From Neoroseomonas lacus (lineage in GTDB: Bacteria; Pseudomonadota; Alphaproteobacteria; Acetobacterales; Acetobacteraceae), in the NCBI RefSeq assembly GCF_014644535.1, contig NZ_BMKW01000004.1:248001-312000 (forward strand): DNA of 64,000 nucleotides. The letters run 5' to 3'. The translations under genes and the position numbers were made by a program. The notes below the pieces were generated by a model. That model saw only the letters and a list, made by a program, of their open reading frames with translations. It did not search any database and had not been told where the DNA came from. Below, piece by piece: positions 2,715-12,827 of the stretch. Within the stretch, counting starts at the first letter, position 1. The number at the start of each line of letters is the position of its first letter.

Positions 2715-3605
2715 CTACCGCGTGAAGGCGCGCGCCGCCAGCGCCGCCGCGTGGTCATGGCCCAGCCGCGCATAGGTGAGGGGGTGCGCCTTCGCCGGGT
2801 CCTGTTCGGCCTCCACTACCAGCCAGCCGGCATAGCCACCTTCCGCCAGCACGCCGAACACCGTGGCGAAATCCACCGCGCCATCGCCGGGCACGGTGAA
2901 GACGCCTTCCAGCACGGCGGCCAGGAAGGGCAGGTCCTGCCGCAGCGCCGCCGCCATCGTTGCCGCCCGCACATCCTTGCAATGCACATGCGCGACGCGC
3001 CCGACATGGCGCCGCGCGGCCCGGAGCGGATCGCCGCCGGCATAGGCCAGGTGCCCGGTGTCGAGCAGCAGTCCGACTTCCGGCCCGGTCTCGGCCATCA
3101 AGCGGTCGATCTCGGCCTCCGATTGAACCACGGTGCCCATATGGTGGTGGTAGGCGAGACGCAGCCCGCGCGAGGACATGCGCTGCGCCATCTCCGTCAT
3201 GCGCGGGGCCAGCACCGCCCAATCGGCATCGCTCAGCACCGGGCGGTGCGACAGCGGCGTCGTCCGCTCGCCATGGATGGCGCGCGAGACCTCGGCAAAG
3301 ACGCAGGCGCCGCAGCCCATCGCCTGCAACAGCGCGAGATGCGGTTCGGCCGCCGACATCTCGGCATCCACATCGCGTTCCAGCAGCCGCGACCCATACC
3401 AGCCCGACGCCAGCGCCAGCCCGTGCCGCGCGAGGATCGGCCCCAGCGTCGCCGCGTCGCGGGGGAATTTGTTGCCCAGTTCCACCCCCGCGAAGCCGGC
3501 CTGCTTCGCCTCGGCGAGACACGTCTCCAGCGGCGTCTCCGCGCCCAGTTCGGGCATGTCGTCATTGGTCCAGGTCAGCGGATTGATGGCGAGGCGGATG
3601 CTCAT
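2715..3605 (-). CDS. iolE: Sugar-phosphate isomerase/epimerase family protein, probable inosose dehydratase
   Basis: This 296-residue TIM-barrel protein belongs to the xylose-isomerase-like family that includes IolE, which dehydrates scyllo-inosose to the trione used by IolD. Likely metal ligands are visible: D182 and H185 (LDTGHL), H206 and H208 (HVHCKD, with D211) and E265 (VVEAE). The opening residues, through INPLTW, resemble the IolE start. The gene begins one base after the iolD stop codon, so the two are co-transcribed and probably translationally coupled. The iolD linkage makes IolE the best reading; a related isomerase/epimerase role is the alternative. Confidence 0.85.
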   Translation of the reverse strand: MSIRLAINPLTWTNDDMPELGAETPLETCLAEAKQAGFAGVELGNKFPRDAATLGPILARHGLALASGWYGSRLLERDVDAEMSAAEPHLALLQAMGCGACVFAEVSRAIHGERTTPLSHRPVLSDADWAVLAPRMTEMAQRMSSRGLRLAYHHHMGTVVQSEAEIDRLMAETGPEVGLLLDTGHLAYAGGDPLRAARRHVGRVAHVHCKDVRAATMAAALRQDLPFLAAVLEGVFTVPGDGAVDFATVFGVLAEGGYAGWLVVEAEQDPAKAHPLTYARLGHDHAAALAARAFTR

Positions 3606-3606
3606 C

Positions 3607-5439
3607 TCAGGCTCCGAGGCGCTGGCGCGCGCGATTGGTCTCGTATTCGGCGCGGGCGCGTTTCTGCGCGGCGTCGCGCGGGGCGGCGGTCACCGGCACG
3701 TCCCACCAGGCGCCGCCCTCCTGGGTCGAGGATTGCGGGTCGGTTGCCACCACCAGCACGGTGGTGCGTCTCGCGCGCAAGGCGCGGGGCAGGGCGGCTT
3801 CGAGCCCGGCAATGCCGTCCACGGCGACAGCGTCCGCACCGAGGCTTGCCGCATGGGCAGCGAAATCAATGGGCGGCGCGGCATCGGCCAGCAGGTTGTT
3901 GAACGGCGCCCCGCCGGTGCCGCGTTGCAGCCGGTTGATGCAGCCGAAGCCGCGATTGTCGAGCAGCACGATGGTCAGCTTCGCCCCCATCGCCACCGAG
4001 GTCGCGATCTCGCTGTTCATCATCAGATACGATCCGTCGCCGACCATCACGACGACCTCGCGCTTCGGCATGGCCAGCTTCGCGCCGAGCCCGCCGGCGA
4101 TCTCGTATCCCATGCAGGAGAAGCCATATTCGAGGTGGTAGGACGCCGCATCGGTGGCCCGCCACAGCTTGTGCAATTCCCCCGGCAGCCCGCCGGCAGC
4201 GCAGACGACGATGCCATCGCGCGGCATGGCGCGGTTCACCGCACCCAACACCTGCGCATCGCTTGGCACCACGCCCGGCTTCGGTGCGGCGGTGATGCGG
4301 TCGACGACACTTGCCCAGCGCGCAGTGGCCGTCGCGGCGCGCTGCATCCAGCCACCTGGCGCTGTCCAGCCTTCCAGCGCGGCACCGAGCGCCGCCAACC
4401 CGCGCGCGGCATCGGCGACCAGCGGCAATGCGCCATGCTTGGCCGCATCGAAGCCCGCGACATTCAGCCCTACCAGCCATGCCTGTCCAAACAGCGCCCG
4501 CGACCCGGAGGTGAAATCCTGCAACCGCGTGCCGATGGCGAGCACGAGATCCGCCTTCGCCGCCAGCGCATTCGCCGCCGCCGATCCGGTCACGCCGATC
4601 GCGCCTGCATTGTGCGCATGGTCCCAGGCCAGACTGCCCTTGCCGGCCTGGGTTTCCGCGACCGGAATGCCATGCGCATCGGCGAAACGCGCGAGCGCCA
4701 CCTCGGCACCGGCATATTTCACGCCACCCCCGGCGATGATCAGCGGGCGCTTCGCGCGGCGGATCGCCTCGGCGGCCTCGGTCAATTCACGCGCATCCGG
4801 TTCCGGCGCGCGGAAGCGATGCAGGCGCGGGCGGAAGAATACGGCCGGCCAATTGAAGGCCTCGGTCTGCACATCCTGCGGGAAGGCGATGGTCGCGGGA
4901 CCGCATTCCGCCGGATCGGTCAGCACGCGCAGCGCGGCGGGCAGGCTGGCGAGCAGCTGCTCAGGCCGCATGATGCGGTCGAAGAAGCGCGAGACCGGGC
5001 GGAAGCAATCATTCGCCGTCACGGTCGCATCGCCGAAGCATTCGACCTGCTGCAACACCGGGTCCGGCCGCCGGTCGGCGAACACGTCGCCTGGCAGAAA
5101 CAGCACCGGCAGTCGGTTCACATGCGCGACCGCCGCCGCCGTGACCATATTCGTCGCCCCCGGCCCAACCGAGGACGTGCAGGCCATCATCCGTCGCCGC
5201 GCATGGGTCTTGGCATAGGCGATGGCGGCATGTGCCATGGCCTGCTCGTTATGTGCGCGGAAGGTCGGAAGCCGCTTGCCGGCGGCCTGCAAGGCCGGTC
5301 CCAGCCCCGCGACGTTGCCATGCCCGAAAATGGCAAAGACGCCGCCAAACAGCGGCAGGCGGTTTCCGTCGATCTCGGTCTCCTGGGCCGCCAGGAATCG
5401 GATCGTCGCCTCGGCCGCGGTGAGGCGGATGGTCGCCAT
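3607..5439 (-). CDS. iolD: 3D-(3,5/4)-trihydroxycyclohexane-1,2-dione acylhydrolase
   Basis: This is a 610-residue thiamine-diphosphate enzyme, the usual size for IolD. IolD opens the six-membered trione ring to 5-deoxy-glucuronate in inositol catabolism. The catalytic Glu is E65 in a HNEQ context. The ThDP-binding GDGS motif with a downstream Asn lies around residue 465, within a segment beginning VVMVGDGSYL. The start chosen is the ATG at 5439, giving MATIRLTAAEA and preceded by a GGGGGAAA-type ribosome site. The same frame is open further upstream, but that stretch lies in the divergent promoter region and overlaps iolG. The gene heads the minus-strand iolD-iolE unit, divergent from iolG across 82 bp. 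Confidence 0.9.
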   Translation of the reverse strand: MATIRLTAAEATIRFLAAQETEIDGNRLPLFGGVFAIFGHGNVAGLGPALQAAGKRLPTFRAHNEQAMAHAAIAYAKTHARRRMMACTSSVGPGATNMVTAAAVAHVNRLPVLFLPGDVFADRRPDPVLQQVECFGDATVTANDCFRPVSRFFDRIMRPEQLLASLPAALRVLTDPAECGPATIAFPQDVQTEAFNWPAVFFRPRLHRFRAPEPDARELTEAAEAIRRAKRPLIIAGGGVKYAGAEVALARFADAHGIPVAETQAGKGSLAWDHAHNAGAIGVTGSAAANALAAKADLVLAIGTRLQDFTSGSRALFGQAWLVGLNVAGFDAAKHGALPLVADAARGLAALGAALEGWTAPGGWMQRAATATARWASVVDRITAAPKPGVVPSDAQVLGAVNRAMPRDGIVVCAAGGLPGELHKLWRATDAASYHLEYGFSCMGYEIAGGLGAKLAMPKREVVVMVGDGSYLMMNSEIATSVAMGAKLTIVLLDNRGFGCINRLQRGTGGAPFNNLLADAAPPIDFAAHAASLGADAVAVDGIAGLEAALPRALRARRTTVLVVATDPQSSTQEGGAWWDVPVTAAPRDAAQKRARAEYETNRARQRLGA

Positions 5440-5521
5440 GACGTTTCCCCCGAGGATTTGACGGCGTCGTAGTGTTACGGATGGATGGAGAGGGCCACAA
5501 GCGGCCCCTCGAGGGAACGCC
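5440..5521. promoter_or_regulatory. Divergent iolD / iolG regulatory region
   Basis: This 82-bp gap lies between the start codons of iolD (minus) and iolG (plus), so it must hold both promoters or their control sites. It contains an imperfect hairpin-like sequence, GAGGGCC-ACAAGC-GGCCCCTC, at about 5492-5512, just upstream of the iolG ribosome site. This could be an operator or a transcript structure. I could not recognise -35/-10 elements with confidence. No IolR-type or LacI-type regulator gene is adjacent. Confidence 0.4.
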
Positions 5522-6520
5522 ATGCTCGTCTTCGCGCAATTCGGTGCCGGCCGGATCGGGGCCATCCACGCCGCCAACCTGGCGGCCAGCGGCGGGGCGC
5601 GCCTCGCCCATGTGGTCGATGTGCATGAAGCGGCGGCCGCCTCGCTCGCCGCCCGCCACGGCGCCGAATCCTCGGATGCGTTGACTGCCCTGCGGGACCC
5701 GGCGGTGGGCGCGGTGATCATCGCCTCCTCCACCGACACCCATGCGGATCTCGTCATCGCCGCCGCCAAGGCCGGCAAGGCGATCTTCTGCGAAAAGCCG
5801 ATCGACCTGTCGCTGGCGCGGGTGGACCAGGCGATCGCCGCCGTCCAGGCCGCCGGCGTGCCGATGCTGGTCGGCTTCAACCGCCGCTTCGACCCGAGTT
5901 TCGCCGAATTGCACCGCCGCATCCGCACCGGCGCGATCGGCGTGGTGGAGCAGGTGGTCATCACCAGCCGCGACCCCGGCCTCCCGCCGGTCGAATACCT
6001 CCGGGTCTCCGGCGGCCAGTTCCGCGACATGACCATCCATGACTTCGACATGGCACGCTGGATGTTGGGGGAAGAGCCGGTCGAGGTCTTCGCCTATGGC
6101 GCGGCCCTCGTGGACCCCGCAGTCGCCGCGGTCGGCGACACCGACTCCTGCATGGTGCTGCTGCGCACCGCCTCCGGCCGCATGGCGCATATCAACAATT
6201 CCCGCCGTGCCTCCTACGGCTATGACCAGCGGGTCGAGGTGCATGGCAGCCTCGGCCGCCTGATGGCCGGCAACCGAGTGCCCACCACCGTCGAACAGGC
6301 CGATGCGCAATCGGACAGCCGCGAGAAGCCGTTGCATTTCTTCCTCGAACGCTACGCCGATGCCTATCGCCTCGAGCTCGCCGCCTTCATCGAGGCGGTG
6401 ACGCACGGCACGCCCGTGCCGGTCGGCGCGCAGGATGGCCGCCAGGCACTGATGCTTGCCGAGGCCGCGCTGCGCTCCCTGCGCGACAACCGCCCCGTCA
6501 AGGTGAGCGAGGTCGCATGA
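5522..6520 (+). CDS. iolG: Inositol 2-dehydrogenase (Gfo/Idh/MocA family)
   Basis: This 332-residue NAD-dependent dehydrogenase would oxidise myo-inositol (or an isomer) to 2-keto-inositol, the first step before IolE. The Rossmann motif GAGRIG is at residues 8-13 and EKP at 91-93 gives the catalytic Lys (K92). GGQFRDMTIHDFD at about 164-176 supplies D169 and H173. This K/D/H arrangement matches the IolG family. It is the first gene of a plus-strand series. Its stop overlaps the following SDR start by 4 bases (ATGA), implying translational coupling. A scyllo-inositol dehydrogenase role is possible. Confidence 0.9.
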   Translation: MLVFAQFGAGRIGAIHAANLAASGGARLAHVVDVHEAAAASLAARHGAESSDALTALRDPAVGAVIIASSTDTHADLVIAAAKAGKAIFCEKPIDLSLARVDQAIAAVQAAGVPMLVGFNRRFDPSFAELHRRIRTGAIGVVEQVVITSRDPGLPPVEYLRVSGGQFRDMTIHDFDMARWMLGEEPVEVFAYGAALVDPAVAAVGDTDSCMVLLRTASGRMAHINNSRRASYGYDQRVEVHGSLGRLMAGNRVPTTVEQADAQSDSREKPLHFFLERYADAYRLELAAFIEAVTHGTPVPVGAQDGRQALMLAEAALRSLRDNRPVKVSEVA

Positions 6521-7299
6521 GCGCGCTGCCGAAGGTGTCGCTGGAAGGCCGCGTGGTGCTGGTCACCGGCGGCACCCAGGGTATCGGCGAGGGCATCGCC
6601 CGTGCCGCCGCCGAGGCTGGAGCAGCGGGCATCTGCATCACCGGGCGCGACGCGGCGCGTGGCGCGCGTGTCGCCAACACGCTTGGCGCAAAGGCGTGCT
6701 TCATCGCCGCCGACCTCGCCGATGCCACGGCCACCGCCCGCATCGTCCAGCAGGCCGAAGCCGCCCTCGGCCCCGTCGATGCGCTGGTCAACGCGGCGGG
6801 CCTGACCGATCGCGGCACCATCACCGACACACCTATCGAATTGTGGGACCGGCTCTTCGCGGTGAATGCCCGCGCGCCCTTCATCCTGACCCAGGCGGTC
6901 GCGCGGCGGCTCAAGGCGCTCGGGCGGCCCGGTGCCATCGTCAATGTCATCACCATGTCGAGCTATGGCGGCCAGCCCTTCCTGACCGCCTATGCTGCCT
7001 CCAAGGGCGCGTTGGCGACGCTGACGAAGAACACCGCCCACGGCCTGCGCGCCGACCGCATCCGGGTGAACGGCATCAATCTTGGCTGGGCGGATACGCC
7101 GGGCGAGCACGCGATCCAGGCGCGCGACGGCAATCCGTCCGACTGGCTGGAGCGCGCCGCGCCCGCGCAACCCTTCGGCCGGCTGATCGAACCGCGCGAC
7201 GTCGCGGGCCTGGCGGTCTATCTGCTGTCCGACGCCGCGGCGATGATGACCGGCGCCTTGATCGACTTCGACCAGAACGTGATGGGAGCCTATGGATGA
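6517..7299 (+). CDS. SDR family oxidoreductase in inositol locus
   Basis: This is a 260-residue short-chain dehydrogenase with the cofactor motif TGGTQGIG at 17-24 and NAAG at 92-95. Its active-site segment includes S148/S149, Y159 and K163 (YAASK). It overlaps iolG by 4 bases and the inositol monophosphatase gene by 4 bases, so it is embedded in the inositol unit. It may oxidise an inositol isomer, an inosose or a related polyol. The exact substrate is unknown; all standard catalytic residues are present. Confidence 0.9.
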   Translation: MSALPKVSLEGRVVLVTGGTQGIGEGIARAAAEAGAAGICITGRDAARGARVANTLGAKACFIAADLADATATARIVQQAEAALGPVDALVNAAGLTDRGTITDTPIELWDRLFAVNARAPFILTQAVARRLKALGRPGAIVNVITMSSYGGQPFLTAYAASKGALATLTKNTAHGLRADRIRVNGINLGWADTPGEHAIQARDGNPSDWLERAAPAQPFGRLIEPRDVAGLAVYLLSDAAAMMTGALIDFDQNVMGAYG

Positions 7300-8072
7300 A
7301 TGACCTCGCCCGCCGCCGTGACGCGGCCGCCGCCATCGCCATCGAGGCCGCCGTCCTCGCCGCGCGCCTGCGGTCCGAAGGCGGCGGCGTCGCCAGCCTC
7401 AAGGGCGCGCAGGACTTCATCACCGAGGCCGATGGCGCCACCGAGCGCTTCATCCGTTCCCGTCTGGAGCAGGATTTTCCGGGCGAAGCGATTCTCGGCG
7501 AGGAGATGGGCGGTGCGGTGGATGGCACCGGCCCGCTCTGGGTGCTCGACCCGATCGACGGCACCTCGAACTTTGCGCGCGGCGGCGACCGCTGGTGCGT
7601 CTCGATCGGCCTGGTCATCGGCAATCGCGCGGTGGCCGGTGCCATCGCCCGCCACGCGCCGGCCGAGATCTTCGCCGCCGCCGAGGGCTTCGGCGCCACG
7701 TTGAACGGCGCGCCGATCCAGGCCGCGCCGACCACCGATATCGGCCGCGCCATCATCGAATGCGGGTGGTCGCTGCGCCTGCCGATCGCGGTGTTTCATC
7801 GCATGGCGGCCGATGTCACCGCGCTCGGCGGTGGTGTGCGCACCGGCGGGTCGGGCGCGCTCGGCCTGGTGGAGAGCGCGGCCGGGCGCCTCGATGCCTA
7901 TCTCGAACGCCACATCAATTCCTGGGACGCGGCGGCGGCCATCGTCATCGCCCGCGAGGCCGGCTGTTGGACCAACGGTTTCGACAGCGGCGACTGGCTG
8001 GCGCGCGGCAATCCGATCGGCGTCGGCGCCCCGGCGCTCGCCGCGCAACTCGCCGCCCTGCTGGAGGCTTGA
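7296..8072 (+). CDS. Inositol monophosphatase family protein
   Basis: This is a 258-residue member of the lithium-sensitive IMPase family (SuhB-like). The metal-binding motifs are intact: GEE at 68-70, DPIDGTSNF at 85-93 (D85, D88) and WDAAA at 210-214 (D211). These match the Glu/Asp set of inositol-1-phosphatase. The start ATG at 7296 overlaps the preceding SDR stop. An open frame extends much further upstream, but that is antisense-like shadow of the SDR and the family begins here. Next to iolG, and followed by an importer of the sugar-phosphate type, it probably frees inositol (or a similar polyol) from its phosphate ester. Related family activities are not excluded. Confidence 0.9.
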   Translation: MNDLARRRDAAAAIAIEAAVLAARLRSEGGGVASLKGAQDFITEADGATERFIRSRLEQDFPGEAILGEEMGGAVDGTGPLWVLDPIDGTSNFARGGDRWCVSIGLVIGNRAVAGAIARHAPAEIFAAAEGFGATLNGAPIQAAPTTDIGRAIIECGWSLRLPIAVFHRMAADVTALGGGVRTGGSGALGLVESAAGRLDAYLERHINSWDAAAAIVIAREAGCWTNGFDSGDWLARGNPIGVGAPALAAQLAALLEA

Positions 8073-8152
8073 ACCGACGGCGCGGACAGGGCGTAATCGA
8101 ACATCATAATCGGACCGGGGCACCAAGCCCTGGCCGTGGGAGGATTACCGCC

Positions 8153-9181
8153 ATGGCGCTCCGTCGTACCTTCATGCTTGCTGCCGTCGCCTTCTCCACG
8201 CTGCTGCCCGGGGCGGCCCGCGCGCAGGGCAACCTCACCGTCTATTGCTCGGTGCAGGAGGAGTGGTGCCGTCCCATGATGGCCGCCTTCGAACGCGCCA
8301 CCGGCATCCGCGTCGCCATGACACGCAAATCCTCCGGCGAAACCCTGACGCAGATCCGCGCCGAGGCCGCCAACCCGCGCGGCGATGTCTGGTGGGGTGG
8401 CACCGGCGACCCGCACATGCAGGCCGGGCAGGAAAACCTGACCGAGGAATACCGCTCCCCGCGCCTGGCCGAGTTGCAGCCCTGGGCAGTGCGGCAGGCC
8501 GAACAGGCGCGGTTCCGCACCGTCGGCATCTATGCCGGTGCACTCGGCTATTCCTACAACACCACCGAATTGCAGCGCCGCCGCATCGCCGCGCCGCGCT
8601 GCTGGGCGGATCTCACGAAGCCGGAGTTCCGTGGCGAGGTGCAGGTCGCCGACCCGAACACCTCAGGCACCTCCTACACCATGCTCGCGACATTGGTGCA
8701 GCTCATGGGTGAGGAGCCGGCCTTCACCTACCTCACCGCGCTGCACCGCAACGTCAACCAGTATACGCGCTCGGGCGCGGCACCCGCGCGGGCCGCGGCG
8801 ACAGGGGAAACGCTGGTCGGCATCACCTTCCTGCATGACGCGGTGACGCAGAAGGTCAACGGCGCGCCGGTCGAGATCGTCGCTCCTTGCGAAGGCACCG
8901 GCTACGAGATCGGCTCCATGTCCATCATCCGCGGCGCGCGCAACATGGAGAATGCCCGCCGCTTCTACGACTGGGCGCTGAGCCCCGAGGCGCAGGCGAT
9001 CGCCGCCACCGCCAATTCCTTCCAATTGCCGTCGAACCGCGCCTCGCCCATCCCGCCCCAGGCGCCGCGCTTCGAGGATGTCCGCCTCATCGACTACGAC
9101 TTCGCCCGCTGGGGCTCTGCGGAGGTCCGCACCCAGCTGCTGCAACGTTGGGACCGTGAGGTGCGCGCCGGCGCTCGCTGA
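8153..9181 (+). CDS. ABC transporter periplasmic substrate-binding protein (FbpA/AfuA family)
   Basis: This 342-residue exported binding protein has a signal peptide of about 24 residues ending ARAQ. It has the extracellular solute-binding fold of the Fe3+/AfuA group: an LTVYCS-type first strand and an ADP-style GDVWWGGTGDPH stretch near residue 80. The start is fixed by GGGAGGA 8 bases upstream of ATG. The adjacent tyrosine pair used by FbpA-type proteins for ferric iron is not present anywhere in the sequence. Together with the IMPase and iolG upstream, this suggests a phosphorylated polyol or sugar as ligand. That is inference. The gene starts 80 bp after the IMPase gene. Confidence 0.85.
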   Translation: MALRRTFMLAAVAFSTLLPGAARAQGNLTVYCSVQEEWCRPMMAAFERATGIRVAMTRKSSGETLTQIRAEAANPRGDVWWGGTGDPHMQAGQENLTEEYRSPRLAELQPWAVRQAEQARFRTVGIYAGALGYSYNTTELQRRRIAAPRCWADLTKPEFRGEVQVADPNTSGTSYTMLATLVQLMGEEPAFTYLTALHRNVNQYTRSGAAPARAAATGETLVGITFLHDAVTQKVNGAPVEIVAPCEGTGYEIGSMSIIRGARNMENARRFYDWALSPEAQAIAATANSFQLPSNRASPIPPQAPRFEDVRLIDYDFARWGSAEVRTQLLQRWDREVRAGAR

Positions 9182-9187
9182 CCGGCC

Positions 9188-11332
9188 ATGGGGGCATTGA
9201 TGCTCGGGCGCGGCGCGCTCCTCGCCGCGCTGGCCGGGCTGCTGCTGGCACCCTGGTACGGGCTGGAGAACGGCGTCGAGGACCTGGCGTCTTGGCCCGC
9301 CGGCGTGGCGGCGCCGCTGGTGGCGTTGTTGCTCGGCGGCGATCGCTGGTGGCTCTGGCCCGTGGTGGGGCTGGTGGCGCTCCCTGTACCGGCACTGTTG
9401 GCCGGGCGAGCGCCGGGGCGACTGCTCGCCTGGTGTGGCCTGGCGATCATGGCGCTGGTCTTCGCGCAGGGCTACGCCATTGGGCTTCACGGCGCCGCGT
9501 TGCCGCTGCTCGGCACGCTGCCGCCGCAGGCGGCGCTGGGCTGGGGCGGCTCCTTGGTCGTGGGTGGCGGCATCGGGCTGCTCGCCGCCGGCTTCGCGGC
9601 GCAGGGGCGCTTCGGCGGCGATGCCTTCATCGCCTTGCTGGTGACGGGCAGCGCGGGGCTGCTGCTGCTGTTTGTCTTCGTCCCGCTCGCCACCATCCTG
9701 GCGGCGGCCGTGTTGGACGAAGGCCACTTCGCCCCCGGCGCGCTGATCCGTCGGCTGAGCGCGCCGGAAGCCTGGAGCCTCGCCTGTCTCAGCACTCACC
9801 AGGGCTGCGGCGTGGTGTGGAACACGACGCTGCTGGCGAGTTTGACGGCGACGCTGTCCACACTGATCGGCCTCGCCTTCGCGCTGCTGTCCACGCGCGG
9901 CCAAGTGCGGGCGCAGCCGGCCTTCCGGGCGATGACGATTTTGCCGCTGATCACGCCGCCCTTCGTCGTCTCGCTGGCGCTGATCGTGTTGTTCGGCCGC
10001 ACCGGGCTGTTGACGACGGCCTTGTGGGACTGGTTCGACATCCCGCGCAGCCGCTGGATCTATGGCCTGCCCGGCGTGCTGCTGGCGCAGGTGCTGGCGC
10101 AGGCGCCGATCGCCTTCGTGCTGCTGGAAGGGGCCGTCCGCGCCATCGGCCCGTCGCTGGAGGAAGCCGCCTCGACCATGGGCGCGCGTCGCTTCACCGT
10201 GTTCCGCACCGTGACCTGGCCGCTGCTGCGCCCGGCGCTGGCTGCCTGCCTGCTGCTCGCCTTTGTCGAGAGCCTCGCGGATTTCGGCAATCCGCTCGTG
10301 TTGGGCGGCGACTTCGACGTGTTGTCGACGCGCATCTTCTTCGCCATTGCCGGCGCGCGGAACGACCCGGGGCGGGCGGCGGCGCTCGCCTTGCTATTGC
10401 TGGCGCTGACCTTCGGCGCCTTCGCGCTGCAGGCCTTGTGGCTTGGGCGGCGGAAGTACACGACCGTCACCGGCAAGGGAGATTCCGGCGTGGCGGCGCC
10501 GTTGCCGCGCGGGCTGAAATTTGCCTGTGGCGCCGTCGCCTGGCCGTGGATGATCTTCACCGCAGCGGTCTACGGCATCATCCTGGTCGGTGGCTTCGTG
10601 CGCGACATCGGGCGCGGCGACATGTCCTTCACCTGGCGCCACTTCCTCACCGGCTTCGAGGTGGAATGGCTAGACGGCCCGGCCTTCCGCGGGTCGGCCT
10701 GGGACAGCCTGTTCACCACCATCGAGGTCGCGGCGATCTCGGCGCCGCTGACGGCGGGCCTCGGCATCCTGCTCGCCTGGCTGCTGGCGCGGCAGGCCTT
10801 CCCGGGGCGGCGGACGCTGGAATTCATGACCATGCTGTCCTTCGCCATTCCCGGCACGGTGGTCGGCGTCTCCTACATCATGGCCTTCAACCTGCCGCCG
10901 GTGGAACTGACCGGCACCATGCTGATCCTCGTCATCTGCTTCGTGTTCCGCAACCTGCCGGTCGGCGTACGCGGCGGCATCGCGGCGCTGGCGCAGATCG
11001 ACAAATCGCTCGACGAGGCCTCGGCCACCATGGGCGGCAGCGCCCTGCAGACGCTGCGCCGCGTCGTGCTGCCGCTGCTGCGCCCGGCCATCGTCGCCGC
11101 GCTGGCCTTCAGCTTCGTGCATGCGATGACAGCGGTCTCGGCGGTGATCTTCCTGGTCTCGGCACGGCACAACCTCGCCACGGTCTACATCGTCGGGCGG
11201 GTGGAGGCAGGGGAGATGGCGCTCGCCATCGCCTATTCAACCGTGCTGATCGTGGTGATGCTGGTGGTGGTGCTGGGCATCGAGAAACTGGTCGGGCGCG
11301 CGCAGATCGGGCGGCGGGTGGTGGGGGCATGA
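9188..11332 (+). CDS. ABC transporter permease, duplicated (FbpB/AfuB type)
   Basis: This 714-residue inner-membrane permease has two fused binding-protein-dependent transport domains. Each carries an EAA loop for docking the ATPase: LEEAASTMGARR at about 320-350 and LDEASATMGGSA at about 604-634. About 200 extra N-terminal residues with several hydrophobic segments precede the first domain. This makes it longer than simple FbpB proteins and more like the long AfuB-type permeases. It starts 6 bases after the binding-protein stop. The ATPase gene follows only after a 457-bp gap carrying an inverted-repeat element. Confidence 0.9.
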   Translation: MGALMLGRGALLAALAGLLLAPWYGLENGVEDLASWPAGVAAPLVALLLGGDRWWLWPVVGLVALPVPALLAGRAPGRLLAWCGLAIMALVFAQGYAIGLHGAALPLLGTLPPQAALGWGGSLVVGGGIGLLAAGFAAQGRFGGDAFIALLVTGSAGLLLLFVFVPLATILAAAVLDEGHFAPGALIRRLSAPEAWSLACLSTHQGCGVVWNTTLLASLTATLSTLIGLAFALLSTRGQVRAQPAFRAMTILPLITPPFVVSLALIVLFGRTGLLTTALWDWFDIPRSRWIYGLPGVLLAQVLAQAPIAFVLLEGAVRAIGPSLEEAASTMGARRFTVFRTVTWPLLRPALAACLLLAFVESLADFGNPLVLGGDFDVLSTRIFFAIAGARNDPGRAAALALLLLALTFGAFALQALWLGRRKYTTVTGKGDSGVAAPLPRGLKFACGAVAWPWMIFTAAVYGIILVGGFVRDIGRGDMSFTWRHFLTGFEVEWLDGPAFRGSAWDSLFTTIEVAAISAPLTAGLGILLAWLLARQAFPGRRTLEFMTMLSFAIPGTVVGVSYIMAFNLPPVELTGTMLILVICFVFRNLPVGVRGGIAALAQIDKSLDEASATMGGSALQTLRRVVLPLLRPAIVAALAFSFVHAMTAVSAVIFLVSARHNLATVYIVGRVEAGEMALAIAYSTVLIVVMLVVVLGIEKLVGRAQIGRRVVGA

Positions 11333-11349
11333 GCCGCGGCGAGCGCGCG

Positions 11350-11411
11350 GAGAGGGGCGCCGCCCCTCTCCGGACCTCACCCCGCCAAAGGCCTAAGGGC
11401 CTCTGGACACC
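11350..11411 (+). repeat. Left arm of inverted-repeat element
   Basis: Positions 11385-11411 are a perfect 27-bp inverted copy of 11641-11667. The similarity extends imperfectly to about 60 bp. The outer end (11350-11370) folds into a perfect 9-bp GAGAGGGGC/GCCCCTCTC hairpin with a 3-base loop. It begins 18 bp after the permease stop. No T-run follows on the plus strand, so it is not a classic terminator. Confidence 0.85.
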
Positions 11412-11640
11412 TCGACCTGGCGTTGGGCAGGTGAGGCATCCCGGCCCGTATCTGGCGTGTCGGGCACGGGAGCGGGTTTCGGCGTCGATGCTGACAATGC
11501 GGCGCAGCGCCAATCAATGGCATGCGGAAGACCCAAGGCCCTTGGAAGCCGGTACTTGTTATGGGCCATTGCAGGCGGGATCGGAGCCCAACGCGGCTTT
11601 TGTTCTCGGCGACAATCTGCCGCGCCCGTCACCAAGTATT

Positions 11641-11700
11641 GGTGTCCAGAGGCCCTTAGGCCTTTGGTGGGGGAGGTCCGGAGGGGGCAAAGCCCTCTCC
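11641..11700 (-). repeat. Right arm of inverted-repeat element
   Basis: Positions 11641-11667 are the exact reverse complement of 11385-11411. The outer part, 11680-11700, forms a GGAGGGGGC-AAA-GCCCTCTCC hairpin with one G-T pair, the counterpart of the left-arm hairpin. Both arms therefore have the same layout: hairpin outside, conserved 27-mer inside. Confidence 0.85.
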
Positions 11701-11789
11701 GGTTCCAGCGCGCTGCACGATCTTCGCGCGCATGGGGCGACGCCCCTCCGGCCTTCTCCGCACCCGCGCCGCCACAGGACGCCCCGCCC

Positions 11790-12827
11790 ATGACCGCCGC
11801 CGCCATCCGCTTCACCGGCGTCACCAAGGCTTTCGGCCTGGTCCGCGCGGTCGACGACATCACCTTCGACCTGCCGCAGGGCGCCCTGGTCACGCTGCTC
11901 GGTCCCTCCGGCTGCGGCAAGACGACGACGCTGCGGCTTGTCGCCGGCCTCGAACTGCCAACGGCCGGCCGGATCGAGATCGAGGGTCGCGACGTCACCC
12001 GCCTGGCCGCCGCGGAACGGCGCATCGCCATGGTGTTCCAATCCTATGCGCTGTTCCCGCATATGAACGTGCTGGAGAACGTCTCCTACGGCCTCGTCGT
12101 CGGCGGCGCGCGGCGCCAGACGGCGGAGACGGAGGCGACAGCGATGCTCAAGACGCTTGGCCTGGAAGGCTTGGGTGCGCGACTGCCGGCGGAGCTCTCG
12201 GGCGGCCAGCAGCAGCGCGTCGCCGTCGCGCGTGCGCTGGTGCTGCGTCCACAGGTGCTGCTGTTCGACGAACCGCTGTCCAACCTGGACGCACGTCTGC
12301 GCCGGCGCGTGCGGGAAGATATCCGCGACTTGCAGAAGCGCCTTGGCCTGTCGGTCGTCTACGTCACGCATGACCAGCAGGAAGCGCTTGCCGTCTCCGA
12401 CCTCGTCGTGGTGATGCGCGATGGCCGTATCGCGCAGAAGGGCACGCCGACCGAACTCTACGAAGACCCGGCGGACGCCTTCATCGCCGACTTCATGGGG
12501 GAGGCGAATGTGCTGGCCGGGGAGGTCCTCGCTCCCGGCCGGATCGCGGTCGGCGGCGCAGTACTGGAGACGGCAATGCGCGCGCATCCTGCCGGTGCCG
12601 CCAACCTTGCCGTGCGGCCGGAATCGATCCGCCTGACCGCGCCGGAGGAGGCCGGTGGCCTGCCCGGTCGCGTGCAGCGCGCCGCCTTCCTGGGCCAGAC
12701 GCGCGAATATGAGGTGGAGACCGCCGCCGGCATGCTGTTTGTCGTCACCCCCGCGGCGGCCTCGGCCTGGGGCGAAGGCGCCGCCGTCGCCTGCCGGATG
12801 GACCGGGTGATCCCGCTGCGGGGCTGA
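11790..12827 (+). CDS. ABC transporter ATP-binding protein (FbpC/AfuC type)
   Basis: This 345-residue ATPase would energise the importer formed with the two preceding gene products. Walker A GPSGCGKTT is at 38-46, the Q-loop is in FQSYALFP, the signature is LSGGQQQR and Walker B is LLFDEPLSNLDA. The H-loop is in VTHDQQEA. A C-terminal TOBE-like regulatory domain follows from about residue 240. The start at 11790 has a modest CAGGA site and coincides with the family start. It ends immediately against the converging haemoglobin gene. Whether it shares a transcript with the permease depends on the 457-bp element between them. Confidence 0.9.
   Translation: MTAAAIRFTGVTKAFGLVRAVDDITFDLPQGALVTLLGPSGCGKTTTLRLVAGLELPTAGRIEIEGRDVTRLAAAERRIAMVFQSYALFPHMNVLENVSYGLVVGGARRQTAETEATAMLKTLGLEGLGARLPAELSGGQQQRVAVARALVLRPQVLLFDEPLSNLDARLRRRVREDIRDLQKRLGLSVVYVTHDQQEALAVSDLVVVMRDGRIAQKGTPTELYEDPADAFIADFMGEANVLAGEVLAPGRIAVGGAVLETAMRAHPAGAANLAVRPESIRLTAPEEAGGLPGRVQRAAFLGQTREYEVETAAGMLFVVTPAAASAWGEGAAVACRMDRVIPLRG

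Follow-up and report, generated by a model that had tools for sequence, protein, structure and literature searches.

What does an AfuABC-type importer carry when its genes lie beside those of inositol catabolism? The question is raised by a locus of Neoroseomonas lacus in the stretch of 64,000 nucleotides analysed here (the window; contig NZ_BMKW01000004.1, positions 248,001 to 312,000). An earlier note on this DNA had described iolE and iolD divergent from iolG, an SDR gene and an IMPase gene, with an importer following, and had read them as a pathway of import of a phosphorylated inositol or similar compound, dephosphorylation by the IMPase, oxidation by IolG or the SDR, and further breakdown by IolE and IolD. 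The gene set stands at the coordinates claimed for it (Table 1), and the pathway is supported by homology, residues and recurrent linkage, with a ligand that we infer.

Table 1. Features of the locus, numbered from the first base of the window; model scores are in bits, with the cut-off in brackets.
Feature	Position	Strand	Basis or description
iolE, myo-inosose-2 dehydratase	2715..3605	-	TIGR04379, 402 (290)
iolD, trihydroxycyclohexane-1,2-dione hydrolase (ring opening)	3607..5439, start predicted	-	TIGR04377, 907 (715)
82-base intergenic region, iolD/iolG divergent	5440..5521		presumed promoters, from position only
iolG, inositol 2-dehydrogenase	5522..6520	+	TIGR04380, 429 (355)
SDR dehydrogenase	6517..7299	+	PRK06198 subfamily, 348 (240)
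IMPase-family phosphatase	7296..8072	+	Pfam PF00459, 161 (27)
AfuA-family periplasmic binding protein	8153..9181	+	full-length homology to AfuA
AfuB-like fused double permease	9188..11332	+	two BPD_transp_1 stretches in a single 714-aa chain
Inverted-repeat element, permease/ATPase gap	11380..11672		49-nt arms, 84% complementary, 195 nt apart
AfuC-like ABC ATPase	11790..12827	+	ABC_tran and TOBE_2 domains

The inositol enzymes are readily named. IolG, IolE and IolD all exceed curated equivalog cut-offs, the nearest solved structure to IolG is an inositol 2-dehydrogenase (4hkt, E 7.7e-95), and three TPP-enzyme Pfam domains are found in IolD. Because the IolG and SDR genes, and likewise the SDR and IMPase genes, overlap by 4 bases, the three are probably translationally coupled. 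The phosphatase scores under the cut-off of every NCBIfam equivalog that it matches; the top solved structures matching it carry the name inositol-1-monophosphatase, and GEE, DPxDGT and WD, which we take to be the metal-binding motifs of the IMPase family, are invariant among 12 aligned homologues, the window protein included. Identity with HisN was rejected (TIGR02067 score 119 against a cut-off of 275), another gene of the genome scoring 277; this separate HisN and two CysQ genes, all above cut-off, lie elsewhere in the same genome. Enzymes of the IMPase family are promiscuous, and the one in the cluster is predicted to dephosphorylate the imported compound, its presumed substrate.

The AfuA assignment of the binding protein, also made in the earlier note, is borne out by structure and by residues. 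Its closest solved structures are two glucose-6-phosphate (G6P)-binding proteins (44% identity), namely AfuA, of the AfuABC system reported as a hexose and heptose phosphate importer of Actinobacillus pleuropneumoniae (PMC4546632), and VcA0625 (PDB 8x1a), titled a G6P-binding protein. The residues that hold the sugar ring in AfuA, H205, D206, E229 and Q269, the first three of which are described as essential for G6P binding (PMC4546632), are kept in the window protein as H228, D229, E252 and Q291, with H228, D229 and E252 invariant across 10 aligned orthologs. The phosphate contacts S37, T60, S148, G149, T150 and G185 are likewise kept as S61, T84, S171, G172, T173 and G208. In contrast to AfuA, three ligand contacts are changed in the window protein (T11 to Q, G36 to S and I186 to A), and beside them its clade departs from AfuA at two further places (N35 to K/R and S39 to E), neighbouring positions at which one AfuA-like protein from another genome, without nearby IMPase or iol genes, also differs from the clade. 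Across pocket positions 11, 35, 36, 39, 57 and 61 the change relative to AfuA is largely conserved among the linked binding proteins. A precedent for a change of ligand among AfuA relatives is P5PA of the Actinobacillus pyridoxal-5-phosphate importer P5PAB, which belongs to the same family and has similar phosphate contacts; it is reported to have A205 and A228 at the places of AfuA D206 and E229 (PMC8427247), whereas the window protein retains D and E there. The four ring-holding residues are intact in 99 of the 102 binding proteins encoded near an IMPase or iol gene versus 33 of 51 others (all rows retained, the three linked exceptions counted), an association that is not independent of descent on the tree (sign test, median p 0.5) and that we therefore do not take as proof.

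Whether relatives carry the ABC genes unlinked from iolG and the IMPase gene was a check set beforehand, and the linkage was not refuted: an ortholog of the binding protein is present in 9 of 22 genomes of the same genus and lies in the cluster in 9/9, one of them on a short contig without the cluster ends. Among 80 related loci, all from named genomes, an IMPase gene lies within 8 kb of the importer in 65 and an iol gene within 12 kb in 52, while the SDR homologue is present in 46 and adjoins iolG in 43. Gene orders and strands differ among them, the IMPase gene standing upstream, downstream of the ATPase gene, or divergent. In Hyphomicrobiales and Burkholderiales, under another gene order, the importer is still beside the phosphatase and iol genes, and 11 of the loci, from these orders, hold the complete iolBCDEG and IMPase set together with the importer. 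RpiR regulators are seen in some related loci. A cluster-type IMPase is missing from 15 of the 80; in three of these (L101, L102 and L114) no phosphatase was found among the one or two annotated neighbours of each, which comprise a Gfo/Idh/MocA oxidoreductase, an AnmK kinase, an 8-oxoguanine deaminase, a luciferase-like enzyme and a dienelactone hydrolase.

In an evenly drawn set of 387 Alphaproteobacteria that includes the window's genome, IolD is found in 27 of the 31 genomes with the importer (it is missing from 4) versus 34 of the 356 without, although the Fisher value of 1e-20 overstates independence because the genomes are related. An IMPase-family gene lies within 8 kb of the importer in 19/31 and iol genes within 12 kb in 13/31, with neither nearby in 10/31. 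Six IMPase-importer pairs occur in genomes without IolD above cut-off (L086, L105, L115, L116, L120 and L123, some of them MAGs of uncertain completeness), so the partnership with the IMPase may be broader than inositol. One of the six, L120, does carry iolG and an IolC.

We read the cluster as an operon for the use of phosphorylated inositol that imports inositol monophosphate, and put the probability of this reading at roughly 60%. The sequences show which families the proteins belong to, which residues are conserved and that the genes are repeatedly linked, while the ligand, the succession of steps and the phosphatase's substrate are predicted. In the periplasm the AfuA-like protein would bind an inositol monophosphate, with H228, D229, E252 and Q291 gripping its polyhydroxy ring and S61, T84, S171-G172-T173 and S207-G208 its phosphate. 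Passage of the intact compound into the cytoplasm would be the work of the fused permease with the ATPase, and the IMPase-family enzyme would then free the phosphate. Inositol would be converted to inosose by IolG, perhaps with the SDR acting on another isomer, after which IolE would dehydrate the inosose and IolD would open the ring, giving 5-deoxyglucuronate.

Hexose phosphates enter metabolism without a phosphatase, while an inositol phosphate needs dephosphorylation before IolG can act, and this difference bears on the main rival ligand, another polyol or sugar phosphate. The importer would in that case have the cargo of AfuABC, hexose or heptose phosphates, or would accept various sugar and polyol phosphates; the IMPase would serve as a sugar phosphatase of general use, and regulation would be all that the iol genes have in common with the rest. 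Every ring-binding residue of AfuA, whose reported ligands are G6P, F6P, S7P and M6P (PMC4546632), is kept, and both the IMPase-importer pairs in genomes without IolD and the importers with neither partner nearby agree with such a cargo. We nevertheless consider it rather unlikely, given that imported hexose phosphates do not require the phosphatase, that linkage to iolG, iolD and iolE recurs in several gene orders, and that three ligand contacts and two of their neighbours are changed. Glycerophosphoinositol, an inositol polyphosphate or another of the larger inositol derivatives, cut down elsewhere ahead of the IMPase step, shares the linkage evidence with inositol monophosphate and would fit the altered pocket positions, but neither a phosphodiesterase nor a phytase is seen among the annotated neighbours (a minority of all neighbours), and we hold this cargo to be improbable.

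Automatic annotation would make the importer a carrier of ferric iron (FbpABC) or of 2-aminoethylphosphonate (PhnSTU). All belong to a common superfamily, and the nearest NCBIfam models to the importer are PhnS2, PhnU2 and PhnT2 (putative 2-aminoethylphosphonate), but its scores are all below the cut-offs, at 212/393, 259/593 and 360/458 bits respectively. Iron binders rank behind AfuA and VcA0625, much weaker by both sequence and fold comparison, and none of the ten aligned orthologs of the binding protein has an adjacent tyrosine pair (YY), which we take to be the iron-ligating feature of FbpABC ferric importers. Published annotations of alphaproteobacterial genomes call afuABC an iron transporter (PMC9927469, PMC12262181), but the curated cut-offs and the sequence and fold comparisons led us to reject both cargoes, to which we leave hardly any probability.

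If inositol monophosphate is the cargo, its carbon would pass into a pathway that differs from the textbook one. The cluster has IolG, IolE and IolD in common with the iolGEDBC(A/J) myo-inositol module and adds a phosphatase and an SDR, but the lack of IolB and IolC noted earlier for the window extends to the whole genome. No IolB match at E<=1e-3 was found in this genome or in 12 other cluster-bearing Acetobacterales genomes (13/13), while the same search finds IolB in 3/3 genomes of other orders. No IolC of the window's genome is above cut-off (best 152 bits against 300, a protein that scores higher on the KDG-kinase model), and DUF2090, the IolC-type aldolase domain, is absent genome-wide in the 13/13 cluster-bearing Acetobacterales tested. 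A count of 31 of 61 IolD genomes without IolB was set aside, having been made at E<=1e-45, a threshold too strict to pick up a divergent IolB type (~30% identity); at E<=1e-3, 12 of those 31 show some match (two very weak) and 19 none. The ten annotated IolD neighbours in three IolB-less genomes (L186, L187 and L188), which include glycine cleavage genes, peptide-type binding proteins, a 3-hydroxyacyl-CoA dehydrogenase and a trypsin-like protease, offer no candidate substitute for IolB. That IolB and IolC are both lacking suggests an unexplained step after IolD. A wider proposal, that a widespread AfuABC subfamily, at present concealed by iron or aminophosphonate annotations, is a dedicated inositol-monophosphate importer with its own phosphatase and that in Acetobacterales it also feeds a shortened pathway without IolB and IolC, 5-deoxyglucuronate leaving by an undescribed route, is possible but tentative.

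Inositol phosphates are a large store of organic phosphorus in soil, and if our reading is true, a transporter whose common annotation is iron importer would, within this AfuABC subfamily, mark their use as carbon and phosphorus. Among the papers listed, our search of the open-access literature found nothing linking AfuABC or AfuA to inositol, no characterised bacterial inositol-phosphate importer, nothing on point for 5-deoxyglucuronate with iolB or iolD, and no relevant paper on structure 8X1A. Another related system is IbpA-IatA-IatP of Caulobacter, also an ABC importer feeding iol genes and, as reported, the only one through which free myo-inositol enters that organism (PMC2597717), whereas the window cluster carries an IMPase and the predicted ligand of its importer, unlike those of AfuABC and VcA0625, is an inositol phosphate. 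The same Caulobacter paper speculates that an HlyB-family transporter, unrelated to the AfuABC type, might carry inositol phosphates (PMC2597717).

The inverted-repeat element does not belong to the conserved operon. It has no second copy within the window, and its core has no exact match among 241 loci. The gap between permease and ATPase genes that holds it measures 457 bases, whereas 26 Acetobacterales loci have -4 to 64 bases there. Replacement of the ATPase gene in the window was considered and dropped, the protein sharing 75-92% identity with its positional counterpart in most Acetobacterales loci and 66-67% in three (L072, L075 and L079).

The cluster in Neoroseomonas lacus (genome of 6.4 Mb in 73 contigs, 97% complete) consists of two divergent units with an 82-base gap as their common origin: iolD and iolE on the minus strand and, on the plus strand and in this order, iolG, an SDR gene, an IMPase-family gene and the genes for an AfuA-like binding protein, a fused double permease and an ATPase. 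The earlier note's description, with iolE-iolD divergent from iolG-SDR-IMPase and an importer on the same strand, is borne out by the gene coordinates, which include four-base overlaps at the IolG-SDR and SDR-IMPase junctions, and by a profile search in which IolE, IolD and IolG exceed the NCBIfam equivalog cut-offs. The components are individually known, and searches of an open-access library found no description of importer, IMPase and iol genes in combination; two genome papers annotate alphaproteobacterial afuABC genes, not necessarily of the window's subfamily, as an iron transporter (PMC9927469, PMC12262181). Permease and ATPase genes lie 457 bases apart in the window, whereas 26 Acetobacterales loci show a spacing of -4 to 64 bases; the inverted-repeat element found there (see table) has no second copy within the window.

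Coordinates of features beside the cluster and in related loci
Sequence	Position	Strand	Feature
window	11380-11672		inverted-repeat element, ~300 bases, separating permease and ATPase genes
window	12828 to about 13290	-	gene adjoining the cluster; translation, read by eye, resembles truncated haemoglobin
window's genome (L048)	G000:C3:371149-372132		second homologue of the binding protein, distant (36% identity)
L190	14182-18562		permease flanked by two binding proteins
L210	8755-13141		permease flanked by two binding proteins

In the proposed pathway a ring phosphate would be captured in the periplasm, imported and then dephosphorylated, after which IolG would carry out the oxidation, IolE the dehydration and IolD the ring opening. 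The phosphatase is probably the telling component for the inositol-phosphate reading, because hexose phosphates, once imported, feed straight into metabolism and need no dephosphorylation, whereas an inositol phosphate is usable by IolG only after loss of its phosphate. The cluster enzyme retains the GEE, DPxDGT and WD motifs, and it is not the sole candidate for housekeeping roles, since elsewhere in the same genome one HisN and two CysQ genes score above their cut-offs, another protein comes closest to the SuhB/inositol-1-monophosphatase model (score below cut-off) and one further family member is unclassified.

Within the genus, an ortholog of the binding protein (85–91%) occurs in 9 of 22 genomes and lies inside the same cluster in all nine, one of these loci being a 5.3-kb contig that begins within iolD and stops in the permease. 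A scan of named genomes, biased to close relatives (the closest being Neoroseomonas and Roseomonas species), drew mainly on Acetobacterales, Hyphomicrobiales, Rhodospirillales and Burkholderiales; of 203 relatives the best 80 were kept, and of these 80 loci 65 include an IMPase no more than 8 kb from the binding protein and 52 an iol gene no more than 12 kb away; iolB, C, D, E and G occur together with an IMPase in 11. This comparison did not refute the linkage claimed in the earlier note. Gene order varies, from iolB-E-D-C-SDR divergent from iolG-IMPase-importer in a Hyphomicrobiales locus (L083) to iolC-D-E-B-G-G2-IMPase-importer in one from Burkholderiales (L089), and RpiR-type regulators occur in some loci. 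The SDR is present in 46 of these best 80 loci, adjoining iolG in 43; two loci from Burkholderiales lack it and have a second IolG-like protein in its place, and our guess is that the protein at this position serves another inositol isomer. In 38 of the 80 loci the fetched stretch contains no iolD; 36 of these (L081 and L121 were left out) were traced into whole genomes, with IolD over cut-off elsewhere in 25 and not in 11, which brings the examined importer loci or genomes with a known IolD to 67 of 78. Of the 11 without it, six nevertheless keep an IMPase together with the importer.

Because of the bias of the named-genome scan, we turned to an even draw of 387 genomes of Alphaproteobacteria (requested completeness 90%, window's genome included), in which AfuA-family proteins (E<=1e-90) were found in 31, IolD in 61 and both in 27, compared with IolD in 34 of the 356 genomes without the importer (Fisher 1e-20, a value that ignores kinship). 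In the importer loci fetched for these genomes, 19 of the 31 show an IMPase no farther than 8 kb from the importer and 13 an iol gene no farther than 12 kb, and neither is near it in 10; six IMPase-family genes in the 6.4 Mb of the window's genome would place a chance neighbour in a 16-kb stretch in ~2% of cases. The position of the IMPase changes between genomes: it can precede the importer, follow the ATPase gene or be divergent. A further sample of 370 genomes from the class of a Sphaerotilus genome (Gammaproteobacteria in GTDB) gave relatives at E<=1e-70 in seven: four have an IMPase nearby, one of them the centre genome itself, two do not, and one has a weakly scoring fragment where its contig ends.

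IolB, missing from the window, is also without a match (E<=1e-3) in the rest of the genome, and the IolC model, run on this one of the cluster-bearing Acetobacterales genomes, finds nothing over its cut-off there. Neither IolB (E<=1e-3) nor the DUF2090 aldolase domain has a match in any of 13 cluster-bearing Acetobacterales genomes, all with IolD: ten of the same genus including the window's (97–100% complete, a figure for these ten), L058 (Falsiroseomonas), L069 and L071 (Elioraea). The same search found both in three genomes added from other orders. Among 11 inositol users with fitness data, the aldolase has been proposed to be DUF2090, as a fusion with IolC, in nine (PMC9007349). Two sampled genomes of the window's GTDB family (G087, G348) have IolD and IolB without the importer, which makes the gap a feature of the cluster-bearing group rather than of the family as a whole; across the 387-genome sample, an IolB match is lacking in 19 of the 61 genomes with IolD. 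No candidate enzyme for 5-deoxyglucuronate appeared among the few iolD-neighbour proteins annotated. Five loci (L189, L190, L192, L195, L197) carry near iolD a divergent IolB type, ~30% identical to the usual one and below the TIGR04378 cut-off, accompanied in four of the five by an IolC homologue.

The distant relative L048 is accompanied by its own ABC genes, and the 20 kb retrieved there contain neither an IMPase nor an iol gene that passes the thresholds. Up to three AfuA-type binding proteins stand in tandem in L042, L043, L044, L046 and L047, and two copies were seen in L040 and L041, after which comes a single permease and ATPase if the contig is long enough. The copies are not alike in their ring-binding residues (HDEQ, MEEH, HNEQ), and to judge from these sequences the arrays look as if several ligands were served by one transporter. 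In L190 and L210 the first binding protein retains HDEQ and the second has FAEQ instead.
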